Positions 5,758 to 7,410 of a DNA stretch of 10,158 nt are shown here, piece by piece; the first letter of the stretch is position 1; every line of letters begins with the position of its first letter. The position numbers and the translations under genes are program-made. The DNA is taken from the NCBI GenBank assembly GCA_018396935.1, contig JAGTRA010000027.1, forward strand, positions 1-10,158. The letters are read 5' to 3'. This stretch comes from Candidatus Bathyarchaeota archaeon. Its GTDB lineage: Archaea; Thermoproteota; Bathyarchaeia; Bathyarchaeales; Bathycorpusculaceae. Under the pieces are notes generated by a model. The model had not been told where the DNA came from, did no database searches, and saw only the letters and a list, made by a program, of their open reading frames with translations.

Positions 5758-6120
5758 TTAGGCAAAACAGCATTTTTCAAAACTAATAACTGCACCAGCT
5801 AGAAAGTTATTAGAAAGGAAAGGCCCGAAAATGGAAAAGAAACCGCTCCTATAATTCTTCATCAACGTGCACAGCTGGTTAGCGTACTTAGCAACCCTAC
5901 CAACCGATAATCCAAGAGCGCTCAAATGATCTATGAATGATAGTAGTAGGCTGCTGTTCTCCAGCCTACTCAGCCTCTCCCTAGCCCTACGAAGCCTACC
6001 AGCATAATCATGTATATCCGCTATCACATTAAACTCTGTACTCGAAGATTTAAAAGTTGGGCTTATGTGAACCGCACCAGAACTAGGGGTATTGGTGCGG
6101 GGGGTGGGATTTGAACCCAC
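5758..6120 (-). pseudogene. truncated integrase-like frame overlapping the 3' half of tRNA-Leu
   Basis: The frame begins with GTG at 6118-6120, inside the T-arm of tRNA-Leu, and runs away from the tRNA for 120 residues; an in-frame TAG at 6127-6129 bars a longer version. Residues about 40-92 (RLRRARERLSRL, then LLLSFIDHLSALGLSVGRVAKYANQL) resemble the SAM-like core-binding domain of archaeal tyrosine recombinases, in which 'GLS.gRv.kY...L' is a recurring pattern. The catalytic domain with the R...HxxR...Y residues is missing; after about residue 92 the sequence (FSIFGPFLSNNFLAG) is unlike an integrase and the frame soon stops. Reading from a tRNA 3' half into an integrase core is what SSV-type integration leaves at the tRNA-proximal end. 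I read it as a decayed int(C)-like remnant. The family match is by eye; a chance frame is the alternative. Confidence 0.45.
6072..6100 (-). ncRNA. tRNA-Leu 3'-end/trailer hairpin
   Basis: The last eight mature bases, CCGCACCA (6100-6093), are followed after the 13-base spacer ATACCCCTAGTTC by their exact reverse complement TGGTGCGG (6079-6072). In the precursor this could fold into an 8-pair stem that competes with the acceptor stem and hides CCA. The same design with different stem bases follows tRNA-Thr. Role unknown: 3' end processing, quality control or transcript ending are candidates. Confidence 0.6.
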
Positions 6121-6180
6121 GAACCCCTACGGGACAAGGTCCTAAGCCTTGCGCCTTTGACCAGGCTTGGCGACCCCCGC
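6093..6180 (-). tRNA. tRNA-Leu (anticodon UAG)
   Basis: An 88-base class II tRNA including an encoded CCA (6093-6095). The acceptor GCGGGGG pairs perfectly with CCCCCGC, the discriminator is A73 (6096), as tRNA-Leu requires. The anticodon stem is CAAGG/CCTTG with loop CTTAGGA, so the anticodon is UAG (reads CUA and other CUN codons). The long variable arm is CCC-GTA-GGG, and the T-arm is GTGGG-TTCAAAT-CCCAC. No intron. Its 3' half overlaps the start of the integrase-like remnant, making it the likely integration target. The trailer carries a complementary hairpin arm described separately. Confidence 0.96.
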
Positions 6181-6211
6181 CCCAACTATTATGCATTGAC
6201 ATATTTCTGGC

Positions 6212-6222
6212 TAAATAAATTT
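6212..6222 (-). promoter_or_regulatory. probable TATA box for tRNA-Leu
   Basis: An AT-rich AAATTTATTTA on the minus strand is centred about 37 bases ahead of the mature 5' end, which would give a leader of roughly 10 bases. The stretch is AT-rich generally, so the exact box is uncertain. Confidence 0.35.
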
Positions 6223-6253
6223 ATTTTGTTAATCAAACCAATTGGGAGCGAAA

Positions 6254-6264
6254 TTTTTTAAAAA
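6254..6264 (+). promoter_or_regulatory. probable TATA box for tRNA-Thr
   Basis: TTTTTTAAAAA is centred about 31 bases before the mature tRNA-Thr 5' end. With the usual archaeal spacing transcription would start near 6286, leaving a leader of about five bases. Confidence 0.5.
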
Positions 6265-6290
6265 GTGGGTTTATTCATATTGTGGATGTA

Positions 6291-6367
6291 GCCTCGGTAG
6301 CCTAGCCTGGTGGGGCACCACTCTGGTAAGGTGGTGGTCGCGGGTTCAAATCCCGCCCGAGGCTCCA
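6291..6367 (+). tRNA. tRNA-Thr (anticodon GGU)
   Basis: A 77-base tRNA including an encoded CCA (6365-6367). The acceptor GCCTCGG pairs with CCGAGGC and the discriminator is T73 (6364). The D-arm is GCCT...GGGC. The anticodon stem is CCACT/GGTGG with a T-G wobble at its base next to the loop CTGGTAA, giving anticodon GGU (reads ACC and ACU). The T-arm is GCGGG-TTCAAAT-CCCGC. No intron. It is divergent from tRNA-Leu, with about 110 bases of shared AT-rich promoter region between them. Confidence 0.96.
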
Positions 6368-6388
6368 ACACCTCTAATTCTGGAGCCT
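6360..6388 (+). ncRNA. tRNA-Thr 3'-end/trailer hairpin
   Basis: The last eight mature bases AGGCTCCA (6360-6367) are followed after the 13-base spacer ACACCTCTAATTC by the exact reverse complement TGGAGCCT (6381-6388), then TTATATAACC. Stem length, loop length and loop sequence (10 of 13 identical, all differences transitions) match the tRNA-Leu trailer, while the stem bases differ and remain complementary to this tRNA. Confidence 0.6.
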
Positions 6389-7311: not shown

Positions 7312-7410
7312 CGGGCCCGCCGGGAATTGAACCCGGGACCCCCGGGTTACCTCGCCTCCATATGATGGGCCTAAAAGCCCGGTGCTCTATCCTTGCTGAG
7401 CTACGGGCCC
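7312..7410 (-). tRNA. tRNA-Lys (anticodon UUU) with intron
   Basis: A 99-base gene giving a 75-base spliced tRNA without encoded CCA. The acceptor GGGCCCG pairs with CGGGCCC; the discriminator is G (7312), as in lysine tRNAs. The D-arm is GCTC...GAGC, the anticodon stem CCGGG/CCCGG, the spliced loop CTTTTAA with anticodon UUU (7373-7375), the T-arm CCGGG-TTCAATT-CCCGG. The trailer begins CTTTCACCTCT, sharing the ACCTCT box with tRNA-Thr at the same offset but without a complementary hairpin arm. Confidence 0.95.
7348..7371 (-). other. archaeal tRNA intron at position 37/38 with bulge-helix-bulge
   Basis: The 24-base intron lies in the usual place, one base 3' of the anticodon. The precursor forms a canonical splice motif: outer helix CCGGG/CCCGG, three-base bulges TAG and TAA, a four-pair central helix CTTT/GAGG (with G-T pairs) and an inner helix GCC/GGC. 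Cutting each bulge after its second base removes exactly 24 bases and restores loop CTTTTAA. The tRNA splicing endonuclease would process it. Confidence 0.88.

Follow-up and report, generated by a model that had tools for sequence, protein, structure and literature searches.

Inverted arms that match the 3′ ends of archaeal tRNA genes are very probably attachment-site scars of one tyrosine-recombinase family

Introduction

Two tRNA genes on opposite strands of a 10,158-nucleotide stretch of Bathyarchaeota DNA (hereinafter the window, meaning the whole stretch analysed) are each followed, after a short spacer, by an inverted copy of their own 3′ end. This raises the question of why the DNA beyond a tRNA gene should track the end of that particular gene. 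The original prediction saw in the arrangement an RNA hairpin that may govern tRNA 3′ maturation, surveillance or termination. Here we draw on the window, its genome and related archaea to offer a different answer: each site is very probably an attL, where the integrase side of a mobile element meets the 3′ end of the tRNA gene at which one family of archaeal tyrosine recombinases inserted it.

Layout of the two sites

The tRNA-Leu(TAG) gene lies on the minus strand at 6093..6180 (ARAGORN; 6096-6180 in Rfam) and the tRNA-Thr(GGT) gene on the plus strand at 6291..6367 (ARAGORN and Rfam). The layout described earlier is confirmed at both: eight bases, namely the last four acceptor bases, the discriminator and CCA, are followed by a 13-base spacer and their exact reverse complement, the arms matching at 8 of 8 positions in each case. 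On the minus strand, the Leu site comprises the left arm CCGCACCA (6093..6100), the spacer ATACCCCTAGTTC (6080..6092), which resembles those of other attL sites, and the right arm TGGTGCGG (6072..6079). Its counterpart on the plus strand comprises AGGCTCCA (6360..6367), ACACCTCTAATTC (6368..6380) and TGGAGCCT (6381..6388). The two spacers are indeed alike, differing at 3 of 13 positions and by transitions only. In both cases the tRNA gene, or its 3′ part, would constitute the tRNA side of attL.

Beyond the Leu arm, on the same strand, there is a TATA-like CTTTTAAA (6049..6056; recognised by eye, with relatives similar), probably the promoter of an integrase, and then a truncated integrase remnant at 5853..6027. 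The latter retains ~58 of ~402 codons from a probable GTG start at 6027 and was identified by nucleotide identity to the locus L099 and by tblastn. A continuous open frame (5758-6120) leads from the tRNA into this remnant. At gathering score, Rfam recognises three tRNAs and no other structured RNA family in the window, and a terminator scan of the window found no terminator at either arm. The third tRNA gene, at 7312-7410 on the minus strand (57.8 bits in Rfam, missed by ARAGORN), spans 99 nt and is probably intron-bearing, with an anticodon that by eye is perhaps TTT; it has neither an encoded CCA nor an arm.

Occurrence of the arm in the genome

The MAG holding the window (G000) amounts to 1.08 Mb in 155 contigs and is 75% complete. 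Each of its 26 Rfam tRNA hits was read together with the downstream DNA, and 16 of them encode CCA. At a spacing of 13, the arm matches at 6 or more of 8 positions in five of these 16 genes, at 5 or more in six, and at all 8 in two. The six sites thus score 8, 8, 7, 7, 6 and 5, the last four being outside the window. Across all other spacings from 4 to 30, the same 16 genes yield one case of 6 or more matches (at spacing 11) and none with 8. The layout seen in the window is far beyond chance. The expectation that the arm would recur after the other tRNA genes was borne out in part: 6 of the 16 CCA-encoding genes of this genome have it and 10 lack it, while relatives do have the arm. Given those 10 genes, it is no general tRNA-maturation element.

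The adjacent integrase family

Read on its minus strand, the Leu site leads into the start of a tyrosine-recombinase-like protein. A recombinase gene beside the junction, as looked for in a tRNA attachment site, is present at five of the six G000 sites, the Thr site being the exception, and is intact at none. At contig C87 the integrase is nearly full length and interrupted; the coordinates place its two pieces in a common frame, which makes the interruption an in-frame stop. C8 retains decayed pieces, whereas C99 and C139 have short, weak stretches (E 6.5e-5 and 0.0016, the latter at a contig end). The C87 protein matches Phage_integrase in Pfam (1.2e-7), its C-terminal piece also matching Zn_Ribbon_1 (9.5e-6), and among structures it matches the XerC-like recombinase 4a8e (1.2e-6). 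The family is characterized by a length of ~400 aa and a zinc-ribbon-like C-terminus. A Pfam search with the window frame 5758-6120 returned nothing useful (Snapin_Pallidin at E 0.15-0.19, below the cut-off), and its identity as an integrase follows from the matches of these longer relatives to Pfam and to a structure.

From the tRNA-Leu gene through the site to 5853, the window is identical at 310 of 330 nucleotides (94%), gapless, to G112:C8 (L099). This genome belongs to a different family of the same order, and its integrase (L099, 1286-2494, minus strand) is intact, with 402 codons (PF00589, 1.4e-16). Because this intact-integrase locus matches, and because attR is found in relatives (see below), sequence comparison identifies the Leu site as attL and its trailer arm, an inverted repeat of the tRNA end, as element-borne. 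The Leu element would have since lost most of its integrase. The Thr site would be a bare scar, recognised as attL by its 29-nt core, with nothing attL-like beyond: past its right arm there is no similarity to other attL sites (481 of 500 shuffles were as good), and the proposal that decayed integrase upstream sequence follows the Thr arm failed this test.

Members of the integrase family are detected at 1e-5 in 60 of 200 genomes (own included). When the 130 nt preceding the aligned integrase start are read by eye, a tRNA 3′ end is seen in most rows, and in relatives the spacer and right arm intervene at a constant distance between the tRNA and the integrase. In six of them a spacer of 13 and an arm with 7 or 8 of 8 matches stand at exactly equal distance from the integrase start; in a seventh this distance is one base off, with a spacer of 12. 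Across 66 integrase loci, an arm with at least 7 of 8 matches occurs somewhere in the tested stretch in 10 (shuffles: mean 2.5, maximum 6) and at the tRNA end in 7, the stretch having been placed by extrapolating alignments, which is rough for partial matches. With only 7 of 66 loci showing it at the tRNA end, the arm belongs to part of the family and is no general need of the integrase. Among 16 named loci with this integrase, eight are Bathyarchaeota and most others Thermoplasmata, at ~30% identity; the viral contigs searched contained no integrase relatives. One Nezhaarchaeota MAG (L221) matches integrase residues 1-178 at 89% identity and has a Leu-type site with the same arm and a near-identical spacer. 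Its presence in a second archaeal lineage probably reflects transfer, or else a binning error. Separately, homology in the remnants at window 5853 and at ~491 of L143 (G035), which belong to different subclades, ends near the same codon (~55-58). This could be chance, or these could be short derivatives retaining just the integrase start.

Attachment sites in related genomes

An attL after a tRNA gene is present in 12 of 200 genomes (own included). The attL search pattern gave 56 matches, of which 26 with an adjoining tRNA were kept, 12 without a preceding tRNA were rejected and 16 were left uninspected; of the remainder, L202 is an attR read backwards and G109:C29 presumably likewise. Together with the Nezhaarchaeota site, this makes 27 attL sites. 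Such recurrence already refutes coincidence or a recent local copy between the two window sites. The latter might be suggested by their separation of just ~260 nt and their similar spacers; however, a copy would hardly account for 26 sites in 12 genomes and one in a Nezhaarchaeota MAG, nor for two arms that differ and each fit their own tRNA, and we accord this explanation a negligible probability.

The opposite junction, attR, has the layout GGTGCCC, ~34 nt, GGGCACCAGAACTAGRGG (and next, in most, a T-loop-like TTYRAA), followed by a copy of the tRNA 3′ end and then other DNA. The tRNA end is preceded here by GGCACCAGAACTAGRGG, the inverted partner of the spacer and arm, CCYCTAGTTCTGGTGCC, at attL. 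A corresponding pattern gave 27 matches: 14 were judged real, three rejected and ten left uninspected. The left arm reads GGGCACCA in 11 of the 14, GGGCACTA in two and AGGCGCCA in one. In the three Thr-type attR, the discriminator-like position, which the pattern left free, is A or G and never the T of the tRNA. The spacer is absent after the tRNA end at 13 of the 14; at C26 (L186) ATACCTCTA follows on the host side, perhaps an older attL half, suggesting possible tandem insertions. Neither attL nor attR was found in the viral contigs.

Half of the attR (7 of 14) have a counterpart attL in their own genome that bears the same tRNA end. Six of these seven pairs, which include C87/C26 of G000, are split between contigs: from attR, the element sequence runs out at a contig end before attL is met, which is what an assembly interrupted within the elements would give. 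In G035 a single contig holds both junctions, at tRNA-Thr and separated by 5.3 kb. The island between them (L143, G035:C1, 327-5340) codes for a truncated integrase, two ArsR-like regulators, thioredoxin-like and iron-sulfur proteins, and an ArsP-like permease. In G043 a tRNA-His gene and the matching attR are 30.9 kb apart, with the right arm and ~80 integrase codons missing. Six of the 14 attR are unpaired; G003, for instance, has a Thr-type attR and two attL of other types. G000 has a single attR match (C26), with the same tRNA end as the C87 tRNA; for the window Leu and Thr sites none was found in this genome (75% complete, 155 contigs). The direct repeat looked for at an attachment site, with the tRNA 3′ end recurring at the other junction, is thus present in relatives and in C87/C26. 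In a separate search for direct repeats, 12 larger stretches (up to 20 kb) were screened; 11 were assigned a site and nine had the site inside. No second tRNA-end copy was found in eight of these nine element loci with attL in the stretch, that of G035 alone having one.

Further features were observed on the element side of certain attR. Four of the 14 attR loci (L063/L028 at G000:C26, L183, L199 and L205) have a second, different tyrosine-recombinase-like frame just inside attR that reads into the element; at C26 it weakly matches Phage_int_SAM_4 (E 0.003, below the cut-off), and the others were recognised by eye. At L205 (11-854, G007:C9), ~650 nt from attR, there is a CRISPR-like array with 13 copies of the 30-nt repeat GTTCCGAGAATACCTATAAGGGCTTGAAAC at 66-69 nt spacing.

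These findings bear on the pre-tRNA hairpin initially proposed, which might control 3′ maturation, surveillance or termination and in doing so perhaps also benefit the element, by delaying the tRNA or stopping read-through into the integrase. Its structural premise held up in silico: in the minimum-energy fold of both tRNA-plus-trailer RNAs, the trailer hairpin replaces the acceptor stem. An energy argument against the hairpin hence failed, although the computed fold leaves out modifications, tertiary contacts and co-transcriptional order. The regulatory role, by contrast, is not supported: 10 of 16 CCA-encoding genes lack the arm, five of the six own cases lie at the integrase end of elements of a kind for which opposite ends have been found, and the window has no Rfam family beyond tRNA and no terminator call at either arm. 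As the arm sits at element junctions and is missing after most CCA-encoding tRNA genes, effects on RNA would be secondary, and we regard an RNA function as its primary explanation as very improbable.

Matching of the arm to its tRNA

Across the 27 attL sites, the arm matches the tRNA end at 8 of 8 positions in ten, and at no fewer than 5 in any. The 20 distinct site sequences have 138 arm-tRNA matches as compared to a permuted mean of 119.7, and 0 of 20,000 permutations reached 138, though the sites are not independent. Covariation is seen at position 4, the discriminator (17 of 20 paired), and position 7 (16 of 20) but not at position 8 (8 of 20). Since the attL and attR patterns fixed most arm bases (at most two mismatches allowed), leaving 4, 7 and 8 free, the remaining positions owe their near-constancy in part to the search itself. 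In a tree built from the downstream DNA, arms with A at position 4 need two changes (bootstrap 2-3), of which well-supported branches force only one. Exceptions to the matching are found at C87, at both His sites, at the Glu sites and in G047. Of the claim of a conserved loop with a covarying stem, the covariation stands, recurring in relatives and exceeding permutation over the 27 sites; the role in tRNA maturation, surveillance or termination is not supported. Overall, the arm beside the tRNA tracks its tRNA, and the far, attR arm does not. The right arm of C87 had been considered as proof that the left arm is host-derived and the right arm element-derived; this is weakened if strand exchange occurs within the tRNA stretch, and C87 then shows just that arm and tRNA end can mismatch.

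Proposed mechanism

We propose that in attP the spacer-and-arm half of attL and its inverted partner from attR flank a tRNA-like core as an inverted repeat of ~17-18 nt. The exact pattern of such a circular attP had no matches in the viral contigs or in 398 genomes of the phylum, so we infer the circular form. As no spacer follows the tRNA end of an attR, apart from that of C26, strand exchange would take place inside the tRNA-derived stretch, and the element would consequently be the source of the tRNA end at attL. This agrees with 3 of the 14 attR ending in TCA, CTA or CTC instead of CCA (L183, L205, L199), though later decay would look alike. The spacer and arm would then be accessory DNA of attP, most simply a symmetric pair of heptamers, GGCNCCA/TGGNGCC, as putative motifs to which the recombinase or a helper binds. 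The right arm might stay matched to the tRNA end because the two are bound symmetrically, as a pair with 13 bp between them.

An alternative is that the arm and tRNA end pair as a hairpin in single-stranded DNA, the folded form being recognised by the recombinase or replication machinery, much as integron attC sites act as folded single strands. Such a putative hairpin would account for a conserved loop with a stem that covaries at positions 4 and 7, and the 29-nt window sites fold at −14.5 and −11.9 kcal/mol, each beating all 200 shuffles (with RNA parameters only). At G118:C40 (L173), moreover, both arms are intact and the 13-nt spacer separating them runs in the opposite orientation, CCGCACCA GTACTAGAGGTAT TGGTGCGG, as though the 29-nt site had been turned around. 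Yet position 8 pairs in just 8 of 20 sites, 4 of 20 are mismatched at position 1, 2 or 4, the spacer and right arm lie away from the likely crossover in the tRNA part, and the DNA symmetry proposed above accounts for the same data; we deem the hairpin distinctly unlikely.

In a bolder extension of the attachment-site reading, the element would specify its target through its own DNA, in that a 7-bp inverted arm, set 13 bp away from the tRNA-like end of attP, would need to agree with the 3′ end of the tRNA it targets. Closely related recombinases could then serve several tRNA genes, the element carrying an arm that fits; this arm would act within a symmetric protein-DNA complex or in a folded strand whose stem it forms with the tRNA end. 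While we hold this to be unlikely, under it target switching would be a compensatory change in DNA rather than a change in the recombinase.

Beyond removing a supposed tRNA regulatory hairpin, the attachment-site reading yields an integrase family, present in Bathyarchaeia and one Nezhaarchaeota MAG, whose junctions can be read, so that islands in these uncultured archaea can be delimited from sequence. The target-following arm, in Thr as against GCACCA-ending tRNAs, amounts to a natural experiment on target change by tRNA-targeting recombinases.

Comparison with known integration systems

In systems with SSV-type (suicidal) integrases, the tRNA 3′ end lies beside the integrase N-terminus and attP is inside the integrase coding sequence. 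The sites described here are similar in that the window open frame 5758-6120 joins the tRNA to the integrase remnant. They differ in that ~72 nt, including what by eye is a TATA-like box, separate the att site from the probable start codon downstream of it, and in that relatives have whole integrases at attL; the gene is thus not split by integration. The explanation considered first, an SSV-type fragment whose att is internal to the gene, was dropped because intact relatives start ~72 nt after the tRNA.

In a tblastn comparison with phage and plasmid records, the best-covered matches among named viruses are the integrases of the Archaeoglobales pleolipoviruses ThalV2 (BK065158; 35% identity over 88% of the query) and GacPV1 (BK065156; 33% identity over 81%). 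By eye, the 63 and 168 nt of record before their integrase genes have no such arm (the records are circular). The provirus AvPV1 bears att repeats of 27 nt, located at tRNA-Gly and beside the integrase (PMC10919331). Integrated elements of Thaumarchaeota likewise reside in tRNA genes (PMC6563490) and viruses of Bathyarchaeia likewise encode integrases (PMC10848311); the accessible portions of these two accounts describe no inverted arm of this kind. For SSV1/SSV2, inverted repeats are mentioned, with no target-tracking arm in the section concerned (PMC8371274, section 17). More generally, the available text of the open-licence literature, including PMC8371274, PMC10848311, PMC11705971, PMC6563490, PMC10919331 and PMC13107129, yielded no attachment site with an accessory arm matching the target tRNA end.

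Archaeal integrases that target tRNA genes, with their attL and attR, are well known (PMC8371274). As compared to the archaeal tRNA attachment sites treated there, the sites reported here have a downstream inverted arm that matches the last bases of the tRNA at a fixed spacing and changes with the target, and it is in this unusual accessory arm that they differ.
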